Below are positions 2,195-16,987 of a stretch of DNA of 28,551 nt, one piece after another. The notes below the pieces were generated by a model that made no database searches, was not told the origin of the DNA, and saw only the letters and a program-made list of their open reading frames with translations. Source of the DNA: a virus; IMG/VR virus record IMGVR_UViG_3300047667_000420, positions 1-28,551 of that record; one strand, 5' to 3'. A program made the translations under genes and the position numbers. Position 1 is the stretch's first letter; every line of letters begins with the position of its first letter.

Positions 2195-3544
2195 ATGTCC
2201 GATATAGATTTACACGAAGGGCAATCTCAAGTATTTTACGACCTATTTGTAGAGAAGAACTGTCTGTTCGCAGTAGCGGCCTGCAGTCGTGGGTGGGGTA
2301 AATCTTACTTTGCCGCCGTTGCTGCTATAAATGCTATTTTTGAACTGCTAGAGCTTGACGCAAGCGTTCCAAACAAGAATGTCTATATCATAGCACCCAC
2401 GTATGGTCAGGTTACTGACATTTATCACCCACTGATAGCCTATCAATTAGGAATGGAAAATCACTGTATCAAGCATTCCAAAGACTTAGGTCGCTTCTGG
2501 TTTCCAAAGGGTGTCGAACTTAGGTTGGTCTCTTATGAGGCCGTTGAAAGACTACGTGGTACTGGTGCATACTTTATTGTTATGGATGAGGTGCGAGATT
2601 GGACTAAAGGCCAAGGCTTTAAGTCAGCATGGGAAGGTGTATTACAACCCTGCATAACTACACGTTGGTCTAAAAGAAATTCCAAGAGAGTAGGCGCAAA
2701 GAGTCCAGGTCGTGCGTTATGCATTAGTACTACGAAGGGTTATGACTTCTTTTATGACATGTTTAACTTTCAAGAGGCTGACAGCGAATGGAAATCGTAT
2801 CATTACGATTACACGACATCTCCCTATTTAGACCCTGCAGACATTGAGAAGGCTCGCCATATCATTGACCCTTTGACATTTAACAGAGAGTACTTGGCTA
2901 ACTTTGAAGATTCAGGTAACAATGTGTTCTACTGTTTCAACAGAACGACACATGTATCACAAGAGATTGCACCATTACAGGACTGGGAAACCGTCCATGT
3001 AGCAATCGATTTCAACGTAGGTTTGCAATGTTCGTCTATGTTTGTCCTTAGAGGCAATCAGATGCACTTCCTTGATGAGTTCAAAGGCGACCCTGATACG
3101 GAGTCATTAGCTGTGTCCATAAAAACACGTTATAGAACCGCAACGAATACCCCTGATCGTAAGATTTGTGTGTATCCTGATCCTACAGGGAACAGCCGCA
3201 AAACATCCGCAGCAGTGGGTGTTACAGACTTTAGTATTCTAAAATCACACAAGTTCGTACTACTTGCTCGTAAGAAGTCACCAGGTATTGTAGATAGTGT
3301 GCAATGCGTGAATCGTAAGCTTAAGACAGCAGCCGGAGAGGTGGATATATACCTTCACCCACGCTGTAAAGGGACCATTGAGTCTCTAGAAAGAACAACA
3401 TGGGTGGATAACACAAGTGATTCAGCTACTATCGATAAGAAAGCAGGAGTGGAACATTTCTCTGATGGCGTAAGGTATGCCACAGAGTATCTATACCCAA
3501 TACAAGCTGGAAACAAGAAGGTATCAAGAGGCTTCGGGTTCTAG
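2195..3544 (+). CDS. terL: Terminase large subunit (packaging ATPase-nuclease)
   Basis: A 449-residue protein with the two domains of large terminases, the motor that pumps DNA into the procapsid through the portal and cuts it. The ATPase domain shows a Walker A loop SRGWGKS (31-37), Walker B YFIVMDE (126-132) and coupling motif STTKG (about 178-182). The C-terminal RNase H-like nuclease shows acidic residues in the expected order: D272 (VAIDFNVG), D329 (VYPDPTG) and D424 (HFSDGVRYATEY). The length is normal for the family. The ATG is preceded by GGAG with good spacing. Unusually, the portal gene does not follow directly; fibre and lysis genes intervene. Confidence 0.95.
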   Translation: MSDIDLHEGQSQVFYDLFVEKNCLFAVAACSRGWGKSYFAAVAAINAIFELLELDASVPNKNVYIIAPTYGQVTDIYHPLIAYQLGMENHCIKHSKDLGRFWFPKGVELRLVSYEAVERLRGTGAYFIVMDEVRDWTKGQGFKSAWEGVLQPCITTRWSKRNSKRVGAKSPGRALCISTTKGYDFFYDMFNFQEADSEWKSYHYDYTTSPYLDPADIEKARHIIDPLTFNREYLANFEDSGNNVFYCFNRTTHVSQEIAPLQDWETVHVAIDFNVGLQCSSMFVLRGNQMHFLDEFKGDPDTESLAVSIKTRYRTATNTPDRKICVYPDPTGNSRKTSAAVGVTDFSILKSHKFVLLARKKSPGIVDSVQCVNRKLKTAAGEVDIYLHPRCKGTIESLERTTWVDNTSDSATIDKKAGVEHFSDGVRYATEYLYPIQAGNKKVSRGFGF

Positions 3545-7031: not shown

Positions 7032-7550
7032 ATGAAAGCACATAAAACAGAATTAAAAGCATATAAAAAGTTTCCAAAATCATTCGTAGGCGATGATGGG
7101 GTAACTTATCCTCGTAAATGGTTAGAGGATTTAGATACAGCAGGTCAAGAGGCTCTGGGCTGGTATGAGGTGGTTGATAATACAATTACGCTAGGTGCTA
7201 ATGAACGTGCAGTCAAATTACCTTTAGTGTTCACAGGTACAAGTATTGAACAAAACTACACTACGGAAGCCTTTTCTGCTGAAGAAATTGCCTATAACGC
7301 TAAATTACTTAAAGACGAAAATAGAGCTGCTGATATGAACGCTTTGACGGTAACTACGTCTTCAGGTAAAGAATTCGATGGGGATGAAATATCTCAAAGT
7401 AGAATGGCTAGGGCGGTATCATTCAGTCAACCGCTAGACACGACTCAATGGGTACTGGCTGATAACTCCGTGGCTACTGTTACTCGGGAAGAGTTAATAG
7501 AAGCTGGTTTATTAGCAGGACAAGCACAGACAGCTCTTTGGACAACTTAA
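7032..7550 (+). CDS. DUF4376 protein, tail fibre-associated
   Basis: A 172-residue protein whose C-terminal half matches the DUF4376 pattern: VTTSSGKEFDGDEISQSRMA, then TTQWVLADNSV, then TREELIEAGLLAGQAQTALW. Proteins of this family lie beside tail fibre genes in many phages and are thought to be fibre-associated or assembly helpers; no reaction is known. The N-terminal ~60 residues (KKFPKSFVGDDGVTYPRKWLE) resemble a segment that often precedes DUF4376. It starts one base after the upstream stop, so translation is probably coupled. Confidence 0.8.
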   Translation: MKAHKTELKAYKKFPKSFVGDDGVTYPRKWLEDLDTAGQEALGWYEVVDNTITLGANERAVKLPLVFTGTSIEQNYTTEAFSAEEIAYNAKLLKDENRAADMNALTVTTSSGKEFDGDEISQSRMARAVSFSQPLDTTQWVLADNSVATVTREELIEAGLLAGQAQTALWTT

Positions 7551-7551
7551 T

Positions 7552-8139
7552 ATGATAACAATTTTATACATAATCTTAGCATACCTAATAATCACATTTG
7601 GATTAGTTGGTATTGGTTTATTCTTTAAGAAAGACTTAGGATATAAAACATTTAAAGATGGAACAGTAATCCAAAACTATGAATTACCCGACTGGTTAAA
7701 GTGGTTACAAAATCCTGAAGATAACTTAACAGGTGATAAGCGTGGTTGGTATTGGAATATCTATATGGCAGGCCGTCCTGCTTGGTGGAAGATGTTGATA
7801 TGGTCTGCTTGGAGAAACCCTTGGAATTGGTTAAAACGAATAGGAACAGGGTGTGATGTCAGAACTCATACTATTACAAAGCTATGTGGTGCCAACTACG
7901 TTAGGGACGATTTTGATAATACTGGCTTTCAAATACTTTTAGCTAAACCAGAAAAAGGTATTACTAAACCTGCTTTATATTGGGTAAGACGTTGGGGACA
8001 ATCTAATAGAGCTATTGTTGTCCAATTAGGATGGAAAATTAAGTTAGAACATAACGGAGTTATCTATTCTGAAGAGGATAAATATGACTACTATAAAGGC
8101 TGGACGATAGAAATACAGCCAGCAAAGGATATATCATGA
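7552..8139 (+). CDS. Membrane-anchored phage protein, lysis region
   Basis: A 195-residue protein with one N-terminal membrane helix (about residues 3-26, ILYIILAYLIITFGLVGIGL) and a Trp-rich soluble part containing WSAWRNPWNWLKR. WRNPxN-containing proteins recur in phage genomes without known function. It overlaps the endolysin gene by four bases (ATGA), so it belongs to the lysis operon. A lysis-timing or envelope role is plausible but unproven. The region is very AT-rich (15 G/C in the 60 bases from 7561 against 28 in the 60 from 18001), hinting at separate origin from the capsid block. Confidence 0.65.
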   Translation: MITILYIILAYLIITFGLVGIGLFFKKDLGYKTFKDGTVIQNYELPDWLKWLQNPEDNLTGDKRGWYWNIYMAGRPAWWKMLIWSAWRNPWNWLKRIGTGCDVRTHTITKLCGANYVRDDFDNTGFQILLAKPEKGITKPALYWVRRWGQSNRAIVVQLGWKIKLEHNGVIYSEEDKYDYYKGWTIEIQPAKDIS

Positions 8140-8432
8140 GTTTAGGCAATAAACAAAGAGAGTTTACTCGTAAGGTGGCAGATTTAATAATCTTCGCCTA
8201 TGATAACGGGTATGAGCTATCTTTTGGCGACGCTGCTAGGATGGACTTTAAAGGACATAAAGACGGATCTTTCCATTATAAAAGACTGGCAATAGACCTT
8301 AACCTATTCAAAGATGGAAAGTACTTATCAAAGACTTCTGACCATGAGCTTTTAGGAAGATATTGGGAATCAATAGGTGGCACATGGGGTGGAAGATTTA
8401 ATGACGGTAATCATTACTCTTGGGGTGAATAG
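8136..8432 (+). CDS. M15-type endolysin (L-alanyl-D-glutamate peptidase)
   Basis: A 98-residue zinc peptidase of the M15 (VanY/T5 endolysin-like) family, which cuts the L-Ala-D-Glu bond in peptidoglycan stem peptides. The zinc triad is visible as H47-x6-D54 (HYKRLAIDLNLF) and H93 (GNHYS); D90 lies three residues before H93, like the catalytic acid of the T5 enzyme. GGTWGGRFNDGNHYSW is a conserved family ending. It is a bare catalytic domain, somewhat shorter than the T5 enzyme, with no signal peptide, so it needs the holin next door to reach the wall. Confidence 0.9.
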   Translation: MSLGNKQREFTRKVADLIIFAYDNGYELSFGDAARMDFKGHKDGSFHYKRLAIDLNLFKDGKYLSKTSDHELLGRYWESIGGTWGGRFNDGNHYSWGE

Positions 8433-8777
8433 ATGGGTATATTCTCAAAACTACTAGGTTCAGACAAGGTCATTGATGCAGGTATTAGTGGCATAGATTC
8501 TATCTTTTATACTGATGAAGAAAAAGCAGAGAATAAAAAAGCATTCTTAAAGTTATATGAGCCTTTCAAGGTAGCTCAACGCTATCTTGCACTAGTGTTC
8601 TCTATCCCTTATGTTATGATGGTACTTATTACTTTTATAGCTTCTTTCTTTCGGGAAGTAGAGACACAAATAGATTTACTAACAGGAGACATTGGTACCG
8701 TAGTTGGTATCATTGTTGGTTTTTACTTTCTAGGTGGTTCTTTGAGTGGTGGATTTGGGAGAAATAAGAATGACTGA
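8433..8777 (+). CDS. Holin
   Basis: A 114-residue membrane protein with an N-terminal amphipathic and charged part, then two clear hydrophobic helices (about 51-73, LALVFSIPYVMMVLITFIASFF, shortened here: LALVFSIPYVMM onward; and 86-106, TVVGIIVGFYFLGG) and a Gly-rich basic tail. The composition matches the '3TM' phage holin superfamily. Holins open the inner membrane at a set time so the endolysin can reach the wall. It begins immediately after the endolysin stop, with GGGGTG as ribosome site. Assignment rests on topology, size and position. Confidence 0.8.
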   Translation: MGIFSKLLGSDKVIDAGISGIDSIFYTDEEKAENKKAFLKLYEPFKVAQRYLALVFSIPYVMMVLITFIASFFREVETQIDLLTGDIGTVVGIIVGFYFLGGSLSGGFGRNKND

Positions 8778-8902: not shown

Positions 8903-9274
8903 GTGAAACATCTTACTAAGTTGGAGATAAAGGAAACGAACGAAGGTTCTTATTCTTTGACAAGTCCATTCGTTGTAACGCATGACGGTATCAGGTATAA
9001 AGTTCCAGAGGGCTTTCCTACAGACCTTGCTACAATACCCTGGCCTGTTACCGTATTCCTGCCCCAAGACGGTCCCTATAAGGCGTCAGCTGTATTCCAC
9101 GACTTCTTATTAGAAGAAATGTATGCTGGAAGACTTGATATCAGCAGGACTAAAGCTTCAAGATTGTTTTATCTTTCTCTAAGGTACGAAAAGATACCTC
9201 TTGTGAAATCGCTGGTGCTGTATAGCGGTGTTCGTTTGAAAGATTTACAAAAGTATATTGAAAAGAAATTATAA
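8903..9274 (+). CDS. DUF1353 family protein
   Basis: A 123-residue protein starting at GTG with CGGAG upstream. Residues 34-46 (VPEGFPTDLATIP) and 63-70 (AVFHDFLL) are the DUF1353 signature: a Gly-Phe-x-(T)-D-x-A-(S/T)-IP segment followed by a HD pair. The family is common next to phage lysis and tail genes; its role is not established, though the paired His-Asp invites a metal-binding or hydrolytic guess. The short basic C-terminus ends LKDLQKYIEKKL. Confidence 0.8.
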   Translation: MKHLTKLEIKETNEGSYSLTSPFVVTHDGIRYKVPEGFPTDLATIPWPVTVFLPQDGPYKASAVFHDFLLEEMYAGRLDISRTKASRLFYLSLRYEKIPLVKSLVLYSGVRLKDLQKYIEKKL

Positions 9275-9286
9275 AAGAGGTAACTT

Positions 9287-9760
9287 GTGATTGTAATATG
9301 CGATGACGATAGTTTCGAAAGAGACAACTTAGAGAGATCTCTAAGAAAGATTACAGATATTGACCACATAATCCAAACGTCATCTTGTCACGAGCTGATT
9401 GGTGTGTTGAGAGAGCACAAAAGCAATGGGAAATTCCCTAAGGTTGTTTTTGTTGATACTTTAATGATAGGGACAAACGGTATTGATTGCATGAAACTCA
9501 TCAGTCAAGAATTCCCTCCTTTCCCTCTAGTGGCAGTCTGTGGCGGTGCGACACCTGCTCATATTGCTCATGCCTTTCGTGCAAACGCGAACGTATGCAT
9601 TGAGAAGCCGTATGATTCAGCAGGATGGGATCCATTTGTGGAAAGTATAACCAGGTTGCTACTTCAAACACACCCTGAGTGGTCAGATAGGAGAAGAGGA
9701 AGAGATGCAGAACCAAGAGATGAGTGTGATACGGCTAATTGTCGAAACAATGAACGATGA
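9287..9760 (+). CDS. Stand-alone response-regulator receiver domain
   Basis: A 157-residue protein whose first ~125 residues have the CheY-like receiver layout: acidic pocket D6-D8 (VICDDDSF), phospho-acceptor D57 (VVFVDTLMIGTNGID), the beta4 site VAVCGGATP where the usual Thr/Ser is replaced by Cys85, and conserved K107 (CIEKPYD). No output domain follows; the tail is short, charged and overlaps the next gene by 56 bases. Receivers accept phosphate from histidine kinases. A phage receiver without an output domain could titrate or mimic a host two-component regulator. It starts at GTG with AGAGG upstream. The domain call is strong; the role is inference. Confidence 0.85.
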   Translation: MIVICDDDSFERDNLERSLRKITDIDHIIQTSSCHELIGVLREHKSNGKFPKVVFVDTLMIGTNGIDCMKLISQEFPPFPLVAVCGGATPAHIAHAFRANANVCIEKPYDSAGWDPFVESITRLLLQTHPEWSDRRRGRDAEPRDECDTANCRNNER

Positions 9761-10163
9761 GTTAGGCGATTGGCCTGTATACGCACCCGCTATTATTATT
9801 ATAGGTGCTGTAGTCTGGAAGGGTGTAAAAGGGATTCACAGGTACATAGCACCGTATAGACGCAGGATTGTTTCATCAGGCAAAGAGAAGCTCGCCGGAA
9901 TGGCATCTGCGTACATATACAAGCACATGGAGTCAGAAGTTATGAACACATTAGCTAAAGAACTTAAAGCTATTGAAGTAGATATGGTAGCAAATACAAA
10001 TAGCATTGAACTGTTGGTTAATGAGCAGATAGCTATGAAACAGCAGCTGCATTACGTGCAATCTCGCTTAGATGAGCGTATTGAGTGCATAGACGGTAAA
10101 CTCACTGAGATACTTTCACTTGTAACCGTGCGTGTAGATCAGATAGGGGAGCCAGATGGTTGA
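9705..10163 (+). CDS. Membrane-anchored helical protein, unknown
   Basis: A 152-residue protein with one membrane helix near residues 25-38 (VYAPAIIIIGAVVW), a strongly basic stretch after it (KGVKGIHRYIAPYRRR) and a long helical, probably coiled-coil C-terminus. Basic residues after the helix suggest that the C-terminal part stays in the cytoplasm, which argues against a classical inner-membrane spanin despite the lysis-region location. The start at 9705 lies behind AGAGGAAGAG; Met6 (9720) is an alternative. It overlaps the receiver gene and, by eight bases, the next gene. Confidence 0.6.
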   Translation: MQNQEMSVIRLIVETMNDELGDWPVYAPAIIIIGAVVWKGVKGIHRYIAPYRRRIVSSGKEKLAGMASAYIYKHMESEVMNTLAKELKAIEVDMVANTNSIELLVNEQIAMKQQLHYVQSRLDERIECIDGKLTEILSLVTVRVDQIGEPDG

Positions 10164-10914: not shown

Positions 10915-12495
10915 ATGGGCGTATCAAATGCCACTCAAAAAGGGCGCACGGTAGAAGATCCTAATGCTAAGTATGAGTCTATGCGCGGACTTTGGGCGAG
11001 AAGTCGAGCAGTCTGTAGCGGTGAACGATTTGTTAAAGAGTACGATGCTTTTATAGATGTTAATCAGTTCACTAACTTGTTGATACCTTTCTCGCCAACA
11101 ATGACGCAAGAGCAGTTCAACTTCTTCAAAGCTGAAGCGGAACTACCAGGTGTTGTGTCACAGTACGCTCATATTTTAGTTGGTGGGTTACTAAGGAAAC
11201 AGCCACAACTGGTGCTTCCTGACGATGTACCTGAGGGTGCGCTTGACTGGATAATGACTTCTTTCGCACAAGACGGCTCGCCTTTGACTTCTTTCTTAGA
11301 TGACGTCCTATGGGAAGAAATGCAGACAAGCCGTGCGTGGGTGTTTGTGGACTATCCTGTGATTAAGTCTAGAGGTGATTACGTCACTAACGACTTCAAA
11401 GAGCTTAAGCCGTACCCTGTTTTTATGAAAGCTGAATCTATCATAAACTGGAGAATGGCGCTCGATGATGCCACTGGCGTTCAAAAGCTTACGCAAGTCA
11501 TCGTTCGCGACTTTGAAGAGACTCTTCTAGAAGGTGACTTCCACCCAACAATGATTGACACTGTATGGGTTCATGAGATAGTCAACGGTTTCTACCAGAT
11601 AAGGAAGTACCAGAAGAAGGATGAAGATTCGTCTGTACCTGTGGCTAACGGGCAAACACAACAGAATTATAGTGTGGGCAATAGTGCGGTAGCAGGTAAT
11701 GGTACCGACTTCGAGTTTGTGGAAACTATCGATGACATCGAGTCAAACGGTGAGAGGCTTACAAGGATTCCAGCGTGGCCATTGAATGGTAGCGTAGAAC
11801 TAATTGAGCCGATCCTTACGCCTCTTATTGATAGGGAAATAAACCTTTACAATAAGGTAAGCAGAAGGAACCATCTCCTATATGGGGCTGCGACTTACAC
11901 ACCAGTTATTGCATCTGACATGGATGACGATAGTTTTGAAAAGATCGTATCTGCAGGGTTAGGCTCTTGGCTCAAACTAAGCCAAGGTGATACAGCTACA
12001 ATCCTGGACACACCCACGGATGCTCTGTCAGATATGGATAGAGCTATCGCTGCCACCTTAGAAGAGATGGGTAAGATGGGCATAAGGATGCTTGCCCCTG
12101 AGAGTGCTCAATCAGGTGTTGCTTTAGAGATCCGAAATGCGGCTCAAACGGCACAGCTTGGTACTCTTAATACTAAGATAAGTAACCAGATGGCTGATAT
12201 TATTGCTTTCATGATTAACTGGAGGTATGGCACAGAGTACGCGGCAACTGACATCGAATTTAATCTGTCAGCTGACTTCAACCCAGCGCCAATAGGGGCT
12301 GATTGGTTACGATTGGTAACCGAGTGGTATGAATCAGGGTTAATACCTCGTAAGGCTTGGTTGCAAATAGTTAAACAAAATGACATATTGTCGCCTGATT
12401 ATGACGATGAAACTGCGCAGGAAGAGATAACCGCTGATGAAATCATTAATGGTAAAGAAGATGAAGATCTTGATGAGATCGATCTAAACAACTAA
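10915..12495 (+). CDS. Portal protein (DUF4055 type)
   Basis: A 526-residue protein, the size of phage portals. Portals form the dodecameric ring at one capsid vertex through which DNA enters and leaves, and where terminase and connectors dock. The DUF4055 pattern is visible in the N-terminal third: LPGVVSQYAHILVGGLLRKQ with PQLVLPDD, then SFLDDVLWEEMQTSRAWVFV with DYPV. The middle (LTPLIDREINLYNKVSRRNH) and the helical GALEIRN-like stretch fit the wing and stem of portals. The acidic C-terminus ends EDLDEIDLNN. It is placed directly before the MuF gene, the usual portal-MuF pairing. GGAG ribosome site. Confidence 0.88.
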   Translation: MGVSNATQKGRTVEDPNAKYESMRGLWARSRAVCSGERFVKEYDAFIDVNQFTNLLIPFSPTMTQEQFNFFKAEAELPGVVSQYAHILVGGLLRKQPQLVLPDDVPEGALDWIMTSFAQDGSPLTSFLDDVLWEEMQTSRAWVFVDYPVIKSRGDYVTNDFKELKPYPVFMKAESIINWRMALDDATGVQKLTQVIVRDFEETLLEGDFHPTMIDTVWVHEIVNGFYQIRKYQKKDEDSSVPVANGQTQQNYSVGNSAVAGNGTDFEFVETIDDIESNGERLTRIPAWPLNGSVELIEPILTPLIDREINLYNKVSRRNHLLYGAATYTPVIASDMDDDSFEKIVSAGLGSWLKLSQGDTATILDTPTDALSDMDRAIAATLEEMGKMGIRMLAPESAQSGVALEIRNAAQTAQLGTLNTKISNQMADIIAFMINWRYGTEYAATDIEFNLSADFNPAPIGADWLRLVTEWYESGLIPRKAWLQIVKQNDILSPDYDDETAQEEITADEIINGKEDEDLDEIDLNN

Positions 12496-12505
12496 GAGGT
12501 TAAGC

Positions 12506-15500
12506 ATGGTAAACGTAACAACTGACATTTATGACAAATCTGTAAACAGGTCTGCAATGGTCAGACTATATGAAAAGAGAGTCGTATCTAAGGTGGACTT
12601 ACTTTTGTCAGAGCATAAAGCCCGCGTTGTGAAGCTTATAGAGGGAGGCCGCTTAGATAGAAAAGGGGCGGCTCTCCTGAATAAGTCAATAGAGCGTGAA
12701 ATAAAGAATTCATTTAAGCAAATATATGGTACAGCCTCAAGGTCTTTATTAGATCTTGTCGCTGACCAGACCTCTTATATGTATCAAAGCATTGAATCAG
12801 CAACTTCTAAGATATGGAGAGCTAAGAAGCCTCCGCTTAGGGTGTCTGAGGATATAGTGCTTAAGAAGCCTTTGTACAAAAATAAGACGCTCTTAAAAGG
12901 GTGGGAAGGCGTAAGCACAGGAGAGCGTAAGCGTATCTCAGCCGTAATAAGAAGAGGTATTTCAAAAGGCTGGACTGAAGCTGAGCTTGCCAAAGAAGTA
13001 AGACGTGGCAGTGTGTTTAAGATAACGAGAAATCAATCTAGAACATTAGTCACTACAGCTATAACATCCGTTAAGGCTCAAACAGATCATGCTGTGTATG
13101 AGGCAAACGAAAATCTGATGAGAGGCTGGCAATATGTCTCCGTACTAGATTCTCGGACTACAAGTGTCTGTGTCCATAGGGATGGAAAAGTCTATCCTAT
13201 TTCTGAAACAGAGATGCTTCCACCTGCCCACTATGGTTGCAGGTCGGTGACAATTCCTGTGGTTAAGTCATATGATGATTTAGCCAAGATGGAAGGTGTT
13301 GCCCAGATACGGAAAAGAAACTTAAAAGACCTAACAGCTAAGGAGATTAGCTATTATGATGGTCAGACACCTTTAAAGGAAACATATGATGGATGGCTTA
13401 GGCGACAACCTGTTAACGTTCAACTCAGACACTTGGGAGACTCATCTAGACTGGCACTGTTCAGGTCAGGACAACTTACTATTGATAAGTTCACTAATAG
13501 TTCTGGCAAATCGGTCGGCATTAAAGAGCTACGAAGAATCACAGACTCAGGATATGATGTCCCAGGACAGACTCGGCGGTTTGCGATGGCCAAGCAGCAC
13601 CTTGATTCTCTTAAATTGACCGCGAATTACCCAGATGAGCTAGTTCATGATAAAGCATTAAGGAAAAGCCTTCGAGAGTACTACCTGCTACAAGCGGGTG
13701 AGCTTGACGGTCAACTGTCGTTGACTAACTATCGTGGCACATTGATGAGTAGCAAAAGAAGCACAAAAACAAGAGTCCTGTCTTCACCTCCCACGGAAGA
13801 GAATTTAAAGTTCAATCCAATAACAGGCAGGTACGAAGACGCGAGACTGTACCAACCGCATCCAGGCGTTCTGGAAAACTCTTACAAATTGATAGATGAA
13901 TCAATACTCCCTGATGGCGATAAGCTGTTCATAAAGGGTATCGTTGGAGACCTTAGAGATAAGATGGGCGTAAATGAAAGAGCTGCTGTGGCGGAGAACC
14001 TTAGAATTGTACTAACACGTGCAAGGAAAGATGGAAAGCCTTGGGCAAATCTCAAAGCTGTCTTGAATGCTCAGATGAAGTTTGATGTTATGAATGTATC
14101 AGATTACATGGAAACGCAATTAAGGAAGAATTCTAAGCTTCTCCACAGGTTGAAACAAGATAACTATATTGACCCAGTACTAGGTGAAGTGCAATTGCAA
14201 GACTTGCATGATAACTTCATTAAGAATATATTCGCTAAAAATAAATGGGAAGATACGGTGGCTCCTAAGATTGCAAAACAACTTAGAGGTATATTGGATC
14301 TTAAGATTCCACTGAAAGTCAGAAACAGGCTAGACAACGAACAGCTGCAAGAGTTCTATCTAAGGTTTGCCAATAGGCTTGCCCTTGCTGATTCTCCTGA
14401 TAGAGATCAGTTAGCTGTTACGCTTGGGCGTGACTTATATAACATGGCCAACTACCGAGGGTCGCGAGATCAGTGGTATAAGCTAGGGTTGAAGTTACTT
14501 GATGAAGCAGATTCAAAAGGTATCTTCAAATTAGAGACGTTCGGCGTACAGAAAAGACGAATGAAGAGTAGGTTAGGGAGTCATTACTTCGGACCTTACT
14601 ATGACACATTCGCAGTAAATCTCAGGATTGTAGACCCTCGTATACAGGAGTACGCCAGACTTACGAGACAAGTTGATGTGGGCTTAAGGGTAGCAGTTAC
14701 AAACCCTAAGAATAGATTAATTATTCGCCCAGGTTATAAGACATACTTTGTCGATCGAGGGCTTTTGGGTTACAAAGATACACGCATTCCTATCACTTCA
14801 ACAAACTCTTTTTCAGGGTTTCCAACTGAGCTGGTGGACAAAAACCTGTCTACTGCACTTAACTGGGCGGCAGACAGTAAGTACAAAATTGATGAAGACT
14901 TTCATGACTTTATTAAGAAGTTGATTAACTTTGAAGATGATAGAGGGAGAGCAAAATACTTCCACGATCTTAATGAGTATAGATCGTATATCATTGAAAG
15001 AGGAGATGCCTACGAGAGATTCAAGGCGATGGACTGGTTAAGAGATGGCAACAAAGCGTTCTCCAATCATAGCTTCGTAGATCATCGGGCTAGGATATAT
15101 GAGCGCGGTTTAATCGGCCCTCAATCAGGAGAGACATTTCGCCCTTTCTTGAACAGTGCTGAAAGTAAACTATTTTCCAAAGATGGCTTCCATGATTTTG
15201 AAGACCAGATAGGGGCTTTCCTTGGCGGTCTCTCGGATAAGCTGGAGGGCAAACACAACTCTCTAACAGTCTTGGGGCGAAAAGCGATCGCCCATGAGTG
15301 GAGGGATGAGATGGTGAAAATCGGCCAGCACATGCTCAGAGGCAAGCCCTCAGACGTCCGTGCGGTGCTCCAGTCGAAATTCATGGCCCAAATTGAAGGT
15401 GAAGAGCAAGGAAAGGCACTACGGTATGCAATCGAGCTGGCTAAGATTTCTGATCACTTAGATGGGAACTTTTCAAGCGTAAACTTAGAGAAGCTTAACA

Positions 15501-16987
15501 AATATAAAATATCAGTCGCATTAGAGCAAGATGCTTCCTCAAGTGGTGCTCAGATCATTGCGTTAACAACCAAAAATAAACAGCTAGCTGAGATGTCTAA
15601 TGTTGTAGCTACAAATCAAAAGAGAAGACTCTATGATGAAATTGCTGCAGCTACATTTAACGACCCTAGATTCAGGGAACTTAATCTTAAGTTAGGCTTA
15701 ACTGAGAAGGATCTACGAAAAGCAGCCAAGGCTCAAAACATGGTTACATTCTATGGGGCTGGAGATAAGACAGGCATACTGAACGTTGAGAATAAGCTTG
15801 CTAAGGTATTAGGGAGAGACACTAATGTCTTGGTCGTAAAAGCTGCGGAGCGTGATGCTGTTTTGAACGAGATATCAGCCAGGATGGCAAAGTATACAGA
15901 CCTTGACCCTGTCATGCATGATGAGCTTAAAGCCTTACGCAAGGATATCAAAGACATCTTTGATCGTGGGGAAGTTCCAGGTGATGATATAATGAGACAG
16001 TTATTCTTTCTTGACCCGAAGACAAAAGATTTCGTGGAGAAGATGACTAGGAATTACGGCAAAGTGATAACACCGAAAGACTTCCAAACAATAGCGAATA
16101 TTATGTCAGAGAATTTGGCTACACAAGTCCCTATCTTAAAGGATTTTACCAAGTTCTTCGGTCGTTTAGCTGAGGATTTTGTCACATACGCTGACCCTCA
16201 AAAGAGTTCAAAGTCTCTTGCTGCATTCCTTGAGATGCAGGCTAATGGTGTACGTAAGAAGCGCCCTCCTGAATTCCTTGAGCGTTTTAAGTTCTGGGAT
16301 CCAAATGGTTCGCTTTCTAAGCTTATCTACGGAGTGCCTGATAATAAGCTTCCGAAGAGTTGGACCAATATACCTTGGGTTAACTTTGATGGCAAAACTA
16401 TCGAGCAAAATTTCACGCAAGTATTTGAGCAGAGATTGAGCTACAAAGACAAAGAAGGGAAATGGATAACCAATATACTTCAAGTTCCGCAAAAGACAGA
16501 TCCCTCTTTTTGGGATGAAGTTCGTAATAAAACAGGGACTATTAATGACATCGTTGATGCTCAAAAGGCTAGGACAGCTTTTGCGGTGAACGGTAACCAT
16601 TCTAATGACGCTGTTATTGTGAAGCGTTTTCACCTTTGGGGACAGAAGAATGGTGTGCAAACATCTACAATTCATGATGCGTTTTTCACTAATGCAGCGG
16701 ATGTTGTGAAAGCTAAAGAAGGCATTCGTAAGACTTATTCAGAAATGGCTAAGACTAATACGATCAAAGCTACTCTGGATGAAATGCGTAGAAGAGGTCT
16801 GCCTAAAAATCTTTATGATAGCTATTTGAATGAGGCCATTGAAACTGGGTTGATACCTGTTGTGGGAAGGTCTAGGGTAGGGGGTAGGCTATTAACTGAT
16901 TCTGACATACTCACACCTGAAGAGATCCTTGACAAGGTTCCAACTGATTACAAGAGCAATCGCAGTTGGTATGGAATCGGTCAATAG
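12506..16987 (+). CDS. MuF head protein fused to single-subunit RNA polymerase
   Basis: A 1493-residue protein. Residues ~100-260 are a Phage_Mu_F domain: RTLVTTAITSVKAQTDHAVY, then VLDSRTTSVCVHRDGK (C222) and PPAHYGCRS (H242, C245). MuF proteins sit inside the head near the portal. The C-terminal ~650 residues carry polymerase motifs in order: DHRARIY (859-865, compare T7 DxRGRVY), motif A DASSSGAQ (D1009), motif B RKAAKAQNMVTFYG (R1071, K1075, Y1083), HSND (1365-1368) and motif C IHDAFFTNAADV (H1390-D1391). D1009 and D1391 would bind the catalytic metals. The ~1100 residues after MuF equal the size of the N4 mini virion RNA polymerase. Residues ~260-830 show no recognisable motif and may be the polymerase N-terminal domain. 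Likely a packaged, ejected RNA polymerase. AGAGG ribosome site; no frameshift seen. Confidence 0.9.
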   Translation: MVNVTTDIYDKSVNRSAMVRLYEKRVVSKVDLLLSEHKARVVKLIEGGRLDRKGAALLNKSIEREIKNSFKQIYGTASRSLLDLVADQTSYMYQSIESATSKIWRAKKPPLRVSEDIVLKKPLYKNKTLLKGWEGVSTGERKRISAVIRRGISKGWTEAELAKEVRRGSVFKITRNQSRTLVTTAITSVKAQTDHAVYEANENLMRGWQYVSVLDSRTTSVCVHRDGKVYPISETEMLPPAHYGCRSVTIPVVKSYDDLAKMEGVAQIRKRNLKDLTAKEISYYDGQTPLKETYDGWLRRQPVNVQLRHLGDSSRLALFRSGQLTIDKFTNSSGKSVGIKELRRITDSGYDVPGQTRRFAMAKQHLDSLKLTANYPDELVHDKALRKSLREYYLLQAGELDGQLSLTNYRGTLMSSKRSTKTRVLSSPPTEENLKFNPITGRYEDARLYQPHPGVLENSYKLIDESILPDGDKLFIKGIVGDLRDKMGVNERAAVAENLRIVLTRARKDGKPWANLKAVLNAQMKFDVMNVSDYMETQLRKNSKLLHRLKQDNYIDPVLGEVQLQDLHDNFIKNIFAKNKWEDTVAPKIAKQLRGILDLKIPLKVRNRLDNEQLQEFYLRFANRLALADSPDRDQLAVTLGRDLYNMANYRGSRDQWYKLGLKLLDEADSKGIFKLETFGVQKRRMKSRLGSHYFGPYYDTFAVNLRIVDPRIQEYARLTRQVDVGLRVAVTNPKNRLIIRPGYKTYFVDRGLLGYKDTRIPITSTNSFSGFPTELVDKNLSTALNWAADSKYKIDEDFHDFIKKLINFEDDRGRAKYFHDLNEYRSYIIERGDAYERFKAMDWLRDGNKAFSNHSFVDHRARIYERGLIGPQSGETFRPFLNSAESKLFSKDGFHDFEDQIGAFLGGLSDKLEGKHNSLTVLGRKAIAHEWRDEMVKIGQHMLRGKPSDVRAVLQSKFMAQIEGEEQGKALRYAIELAKISDHLDGNFSSVNLEKLNKYKISVALEQDASSSGAQIIALTTKNKQLAEMSNVVATNQKRRLYDEIAAATFNDPRFRELNLKLGLTEKDLRKAAKAQNMVTFYGAGDKTGILNVENKLAKVLGRDTNVLVVKAAERDAVLNEISARMAKYTDLDPVMHDELKALRKDIKDIFDRGEVPGDDIMRQLFFLDPKTKDFVEKMTRNYGKVITPKDFQTIANIMSENLATQVPILKDFTKFFGRLAEDFVTYADPQKSSKSLAAFLEMQANGVRKKRPPEFLERFKFWDPNGSLSKLIYGVPDNKLPKSWTNIPWVNFDGKTIEQNFTQVFEQRLSYKDKEGKWITNILQVPQKTDPSFWDEVRNKTGTINDIVDAQKARTAFAVNGNHSNDAVIVKRFHLWGQKNGVQTSTIHDAFFTNAADVVKAKEGIRKTYSEMAKTNTIKATLDEMRRRGLPKNLYDSYLNEAIETGLIPVVGRSRVGGRLLTDSDILTPEEILDKVPTDYKSNRSWYGIGQ

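Follow-up and report, generated by a model that had tools for sequence, protein, structure and literature searches.

The window analyzed here, an IMG/VR record of 28,551 nucleotides of viral DNA, carries a gene for a stand-alone receiver domain protein of 157 amino acids (aa), P0001 (9287..9760, +), that lies between the genes for the terminase large subunit (TerL; 2195..3544, +; 61% identity to L002, 50% to EBPR siphovirus 1, and 69% to L105) and the portal protein (10915..12495, +; 43–65% identity to relatives, with a portal annotation in DSS3_VP1), which form the two borders of a variable slot. A DUF4376 protein (7032..7550, +; PF14301, E 4.2e-7) is encoded upstream of the lysis region, and in the available part of one published account this domain is assigned to gp27 of phage V22 and gp9 of phage A5, members of a tail fibre chaperone family (PMC10579305). 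It is followed by genes for a DUF7338 protein (7552-8139), an M15-type peptidase that is likely an endolysin (8136..8432, +; PF13539, E 1.7e-6; phrog_1768 endolysin, E 0.0014), a protein with two hydrophobic stretches in its hydropathy profile (8433..8777, +; phrog_9646, function unknown, E 1.9e-19), which we infer from its size, transmembrane (TM) stretches, and position to be holin-like, and a DUF1353 protein (8903..9274, +; PF07087, E 6.6e-16; phrog_1158, E 7e-22), whose gene stops 12 nt 5' of the receiver gene and for which viral contigs yielded no relatives and named phages yielded distant relatives only. The next gene (9705..10163, +) encodes a membrane protein that is our candidate partner of the receiver; depending on whether it starts at ATG 9705, ATG 9720, or ATG 9750, it shares 56, 41, or 11 nt with the receiver gene, and its product has one hydrophobic stretch (approximately residues 23–41), a long helix (residues 59–146), an AlphaFold2 single-sequence pLDDT of 69, and no match in named phages. 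The original prediction had placed the receiver after lysis genes and before an unusual membrane protein, and both parts of this description agree with the gene order, in which the peptidase and the two-TM holin-like protein lie upstream with the DUF1353 gene between, and the overlapping membrane protein gene lies downstream.

Beyond the portal gene, positions 12506-16987 form an open reading frame of 1493 aa in which a Phage_Mu_F head-morphogenesis domain (E 1.3e-13) spans residues 143–249 and a T7-type RNA_pol domain has its best stretch at residues 1337–1430 (E 9.6e-14); the product is a candidate fusion of a head protein with a virion RNA polymerase. L002 (44%), L004, and DSS3_VP1 have long homologues of this frame, and in EBPR siphovirus 1 the homologue is split in two with an HNH gene between the parts.

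The open reading frame of P0001 has a GTG start codon with a Shine-Dalgarno-like AGAGG 5' of it. The sole Pfam domain in the protein is PF00072 (Response_reg; residues 2–111, 45.9 bits, E 7.4e-12, curated cut-off 30.2), a match much too strong to be due to chance, and neither an output domain in general nor the LytTR DNA-binding domain in particular is present in the Pfam results. AlphaFold2, supplied with a shallow alignment of four sequences (viz. P0001 and the viral-contig receivers L216, L221, and L233), gives a (beta/alpha)5 model with a mean pLDDT of 77.7, in which strands (E) and helices (H) alternate in the predicted order E2-5, H9-22, E28-31, H34-46, E53-57, H65-75, E81-86, H90-98, E103-107, and H111-128. 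The best 50 matches of this model in a Foldseek search of the PDB are all receivers (top E 1e-8; TMt 0.85–0.88 for the best rows, rank 4 excepted), and in VIA-align the model aligns with solved receivers over approximately 120 residues at Z 18.6–19.9 among the matches listed. P0001 thus belongs to the PF00072 superfamily by its profile score, its fold, its acid pair, its phosphoacceptor Asp, and its Lys. The original prediction had described a phage-encoded single receiver domain with no output domain and had named structure prediction as the check on its fold; the predicted fold is that of a receiver, profile and gene context agree with it, and we conclude that P0001 is a true stand-alone receiver. 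Its C-terminal tail (residues 133–157; 9683..9760, +), which has the sequence SDRRRGRDAEPRDE, is predicted to be disordered (AlphaFold2 pLDDT <50) and contains the stretch RRRGRD. Reading of the DNA places the Arg codons of this stretch in the purine run immediately 5' of ATG 9705, the ribosome-binding region of the next gene, and hence the Arg-rich tail is most simply explained as a by-product of the gene overlap.

The acid pair (D6 and D7), the phosphoacceptor D57, and K107 are intact in P0001, and these residues, as well as Cys85, are found at the positions that the original prediction had given for them. The equivalent of D57 is also kept in all seven aligned receivers from the phage lysis cassettes described below and in one other phage receiver. 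For comparison we assembled a panel of receivers from plasmid and chromid records, two receivers from named-phage records, and the viral-contig receivers L216, L221, and L233. Identical rows were removed, and of 131 domains we kept the 120 in which 95 or more residues were aligned. The phosphoacceptor Asp is present in 119 and the Lys in 117 of these 120 receivers, and a Pro four residues after the Asp, where P0001 has Ile61, is found in 103. The Thr/Ser switch position at the end of strand 4, which is Cys85 in P0001, is occupied by Thr in 82 and by Ser in 38 members of the panel, leaving none of the 120 with any other residue; the panel consists chiefly of receivers from Cupriavidus, Caballeronia, Azospirillum, and Spirosoma that were retrieved by profile search, and this count may therefore under-sample receivers of rare, atypical kinds. 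The residue three before the Lys is the partner of the Thr/Ser in the switch of CheY. This second switch position, which the original prediction did not mention, is Cys104 in P0001, whereas the panel has Tyr in 61, Phe in 29, His in 9, Cys in 3, and other residues in 18 cases (n = 120), and a Cys at both positions occurs in none of the 120 receivers. P0001 therefore departs from the canonical CheY-type phospho-switch receiver at both switch positions. To judge from these residues, the phosphate-accepting site seems to be preserved, whereas the relay is altered in both of its parts. Because both relay residues are Cys, CheY-like gating of the output of P0001 is improbable, and the protein may instead have a constitutive output or read phosphorylation of D57 in some other way. 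The sequence fits phosphotransfer from host kinases, a decoy role, and a phosphorylation-independent adaptor alike. With the relay altered, phospho-gating of the usual kind is less likely, although phosphorylation itself may still occur, and the two switch positions tend to favour an adaptor that works without the common phospho-switch.

The portal protein of the window is 43–45% identical to those of DSS3_VP1 (Naomviridae), EBPR siphovirus 1, and Pelagibacter phage Kolga, and up to 65% identical to those of viral contigs. A PF00072 receiver was found in none of 158 related virus records (0/8 and 0/150), many of which are fragments, the larger set being 150 of the 154 distinct further contigs that were fetched with TerL and portal profiles (all except L164, L166, L169, and L170). 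Likewise, a tblastn search of all related loci with the window genes as queries gave no relatives for 8903-9274, 9287-9760, or 9705-10163. The interval between TerL and portal genes varies from 60 to 8892 nt across 31 loci that have both genes, some of these loci being two cuts of a single contig. The absence of the receiver from relatives and the variability of this interval indicate that the gene is accessory and occupies a variable slot. At locus L004, from a relative, the slot in which the window carries its receiver is occupied by a different accessory gene, for a PhoH-like ATPase (7177-7911, recognized by eye).

Exact-peptide scans of viral and genome contigs and a search with a two-sequence alignment, both with a reach limited to close relatives, gave no homologues of P0001. 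The tblastn matches of P0001 that were opened in named phages proved to be bacterial-type DNA or a full-length regulator and were set aside. Phage-named records such as L011 (CAKLQH020000023.1) contain ordinary bacterial operons (argH, ypdA, ypdB, and hemC), and many receiver matches also come from unannotated records called "Listeria phage LM" and from fecal "Bacteriophage sp." records; tblastn counts in named-phage records are thus unreliable for host-type genes. A scan of viral contigs for receivers of the GANxYLVKP type returned mainly capsid-like proteins, with receivers in 2 of 24 loci (the OmpR-type L216 and the stand-alone L221), and a scan with a LytTR pattern returned one receiver, L233.

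A structural search of viral proteins identified stand-alone receivers in tailed phages, including a protein of 149 aa from phage V22. Using the receiver of phage XX1924 in tblastn, we obtained 11 records named for Alteromonas that represent nine isolates (viz. V22, A5, PB15, XX1924, R8W, H4/4, R9Y1, R9Y2, and R9Y3, with V22 and H4/4 recorded twice each). A match in Pseudomonas phage Komp_PAO1_1 was not counted, as it lies on the plus strand inside a minus-strand coding sequence of 261 aa. All nine of the Alteromonas phage isolates opened, which fall into five groups, have a stand-alone receiver inside the lysis cassette, adjoining spanin, endolysin, or holin genes; they were reached through homologues of one lysis-placed receiver and hence are no unbiased sample, and all infect Alteromonas. 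In each of the nine, the start of the following gene lies within the receiver gene (4, 20, 32, or 35 nt before its end), as it does in the window (56 nt with the start at ATG 9705).

The gene orders in these cassettes are diverse. In V22, the order is tail fibre, chaperone, amidase, ORF29, the receiver ORF30, and ORF31, which begins 32 nt before the end of the receiver gene, and in the schitovirus A5 a block of gp10, the receiver gp11, gp12 (overlapping gp11 by 35 nt), and the two-TM protein gp13 is followed by an annotated endolysin. The gp31 of V22 (L321 26167-26577; E 7e-6) and the gp12 of A5 (L322 6410-6886; E 2.9e-8) both match the Rz-like spanins of phrog_4297. In PB15, a hemolysin-type coiled-coil protein (phrog_937) precedes the receiver, which is followed by an M15 peptidase (E 2.7e-13) and a three-TM holin (PF11351, E 3e-16); XX1924 has, by eye, the same first gene as PB15, then the receiver, a DUF5675 protein, and a holin. 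The annotated start of the PB15 receiver (L323 4992-5390) is too short, and an upstream in-frame ATG restores its first strand (MKKRVFVMDD...). In R8W and H4/4 (Autographiviridae), the receiver is preceded by a class II holin (phrog_1356, E 7e-14 for R8W) and a one-TM protein and is followed by one more protein and the terminase, and R9Y1, R9Y2, and R9Y3 share the order one-TM protein, receiver, and lysozyme (GH108, E 1.8e-23 for R9Y2). The receivers of R9Y2 (L327 3992-4444), R9Y1 (L329 1492-1944), and R9Y3 (L330 1492-1944) are annotated as hypothetical proteins. The small protein encoded upstream of the receiver has a clear TM stretch in PB15, XX1924, R8W, H4/4, and R9Y2, whereas ORF29 of V22 and gp10 of A5 fall below the hydropathy threshold used.

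The published accounts of these phages describe the receivers in other terms. The V22 coding sequence CDS-30 is listed as CheY-like among class II auxiliary metabolic genes in the available part of PMC7289586, and V22 gp30 and A5 gp11 are described as CheY-like class II auxiliary genes in that of PMC10579305, where the functions of V22 gp29, gp31, and gp32 and of their partners in A5 are said to remain unknown, the receiver region is said to be shared by V22 and A5 through transfer, and neither "spanin" nor "endolysin" appears anywhere in the main text. Neither "response regulator" nor "receiver" occurs in the text on R9Y1–R9Y3 (PMC9430817), and the open-licence literature that was searched contained no paper linking receivers to lysis cassettes.

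All seven aligned receivers of the Alteromonas phages keep the equivalents of D57 and K107, a Ser at the switch position, and a Tyr three before the Lys. In a FastTree phylogeny they fall within a group of 8 tips that includes one bacterial sequence (support 0.39), and the isolates may carry one receiver family that has moved between phages. P0001 lies outside this family, a profile of the seven receivers giving it 14.9 bits (rank 119 of 122, median 46), and its placement therefore looks like a separate instance, which lends support to the pattern. The profile of the Alteromonas phage coiled-coil proteins gave the product of 9705-10163 a score of 7.2, which is at the level of the controls: a control protein scored 7.1, and the highest score among 193 scored shuffles was 6.8. 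As a counterexample, the stand-alone CheY-like receiver of L221 (3856-4302, 148 aa), on a viral contig of 74.6 kb, has no recognized lysis gene nearby when its surroundings are read by eye. The link between receiver and lysis that the original prediction had offered as one of several possibilities is thus strengthened in part: the link gains independent support from the nine isolates whose lysis cassettes contain a receiver, and control of lysis by the window receiver would be a putative role.

The reading that we tentatively prefer, at something short of an even chance, is that P0001 is a single-domain response regulator that this siphophage acquired as an accessory gene, placed in its lysis cassette, and that acts as an adaptor on a neighbouring lysis or membrane protein. 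The receiver would be made late, together with the lysis proteins, and would stay in the cytoplasm, where it would bind directly to a neighbouring membrane or lysis protein, the product of 9705-10163 being the first candidate, and such binding would tune the timing or the occurrence of lysis. A cytosolic contact adaptor is the most economical reading because it covers the place of the gene, its overlap with the next gene, and the lack of an output domain. A precedent is provided by EpsW, a single-domain receiver that, in the available part of the report, regulates the membrane enzyme EpsZ by direct interaction (PMC12802240).

A doubtful but still serious alternative is that the receiver is directed at host signalling, either as a decoy or phosphate sink for host histidine kinases or by acting in the manner of CheY on motility, polysaccharide, or stress responses, with the site beside lysis genes merely a convenient place of insertion. 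Lysis regions are common sites for unrelated cargo genes, and with D6, D7, D57, and K107 intact, phosphotransfer to P0001 would be chemically plausible. The classification of the V22 and A5 receivers as class II auxiliary metabolic genes in the available parts of two reports (PMC7289586; PMC10579305) and the description of the single-domain receiver DifD as a phosphate sink in that of a third (PMC12802240) are in accord with such a role. The absence of any kinase or phosphotransfer domain from the 20 window proteins searched with Pfam fits host-directed signalling as well and does not discriminate. What argues against it is that receivers recur in the lysis cassettes of nine isolates from five groups, where their genes overlap with neighbours.

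It is unlikely that the gene is a passenger, i.e., a recently acquired host gene that is drifting without function, although its lone occurrence in the lineage (0/158 records), its low PF00072 score (46 bits, as compared with 40–112 for the comparison receivers), and a loss of the Thr/Ser and Tyr/Phe residues that could reflect decay would all suit such an origin. Against this stand the open frame, the complete predicted fold, the good start signal, the intact phosphorylation site, and the tight packing with overlap, and useless genes are seldom kept in phage genomes. Use of Cys85 and Cys104, together with C5, C34, and C68, as a thiol switch in a redox- or metal-sensing receiver, including a disulfide between Cys85 and Cys104, is highly improbable: P0001 has 7 Cys in 157 aa as compared with 26 in the 8797 aa of the other window proteins, and Cys at both switch positions is without parallel in the panel (0/120), but that comparison set consists mostly of virion proteins, which are Cys-poor anyway (TerL 2.2%), one of the 120 panel receivers has 6 Cys in its domain, and the cytoplasm is reducing. 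Binding of c-di-GMP by the Arg-rich tail in the manner of the Cle effectors, which the short RRRGRD tail after a receiver and R98 in helix 4 might bring to mind, has next to no likelihood and was rejected, since the tandem motif [YF]xGP[DE][RK]R that follows the receiver in those effectors, according to the available part of PMC5677366, is absent from P0001 and its Arg codons double as the ribosome-binding region of the next gene.

Returning to the adaptor reading, the presence of receivers in the lysis cassettes of several marine phages suggests that some phages may tie the bursting of the cell to host signalling. A broader proposal, which in its full extent is rather unlikely to be correct, is that tailed marine phages have repeatedly recruited receivers to their lysis cassettes, where host phospho-signalling or acetyl phosphate would set the timing of lysis through docking of the receiver on a co-translated membrane or lysis protein, and that the window receiver has evolved further, with Cys at both switch residues and an output that would be constitutive or otherwise gated. 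The lysis timing of phages is mostly explained by holin-built timing and a few antiholins. If the proposal is true, a receiver in the lysis cassette would represent a direct molecular route from the signalling state of the host to the time of lysis, genes now filed as auxiliary metabolic genes would be recast, and their neighbours of unknown function would gain a likely role in lysis. Some of the phages with lysis-cassette receivers infect hosts that can be cultured, such as Alteromonas macleodii ATCC 27126, and the proposal is therefore directly testable. P0001 itself, although divergent, is of a known kind, and the recurrent placement of receivers beside lysis genes is the more interesting result.

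Among known receiver systems, those of V22 and A5 resemble P0001 in being stand-alone PF00072 proteins of tailed marine phages, encoded downstream of tail fibre and DUF4376 chaperone genes and beside lysis genes, with an overlapping next gene, but they differ in having only 18–19% identity to P0001, Ser and Tyr at the switch positions, and an Rz-like spanin as the next gene product. PB15, XX1924, R8W, H4/4, and R9Y1–R9Y3 are likewise similar to the window in having a receiver in a holin/endolysin cassette with start/stop overlap, whereas their receivers have canonical switch residues and belong to another sequence family; moreover, the small membrane or coiled-coil protein of the Alteromonas phages is encoded upstream of the receiver, and the long-helix protein of the window downstream. 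The receiver domain cREC of jumbo phages, described in the available part of PMC7824862 as a divergent receiver domain outside two-component systems that is tied to NAD/ADP-ribose genes, is like P0001 a divergent receiver domain of phages, but structural matches to it are weak (E 3e-4 and worse), and, as a Pfam scan of 20 window proteins revealed no NAD/ADP-ribose processing genes, the identity of P0001 with cREC was rejected. The highest pairwise identity of P0001 is to receivers of the BtsR type (29–30%, L012), and BtsR is also its best NCBIfam profile (30 bits, cut-off 246); however, BtsR/LytTR-type receivers have a LytTR domain, keep the Thr, and lie apart from P0001 in the tree. The single-domain receivers that we label Rcp1-like from their sequence features (Spirosoma L013 and Cupriavidus L305) share with P0001, and with Rcp1 itself (1i3c), an insertion before strand 3. 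FastTree places P0001 with L013 (0.92) and with L189/L305 (0.94), a weak placement given the long branches and the small panel, the L189 and L305 receivers being open frames of about 155–163 aa. L013 (approximately 23% identity) also has a Cys three before the Lys, as P0001 does, but L013, L189, and L305 all keep a Thr/Ser at the switch, unlike P0001.
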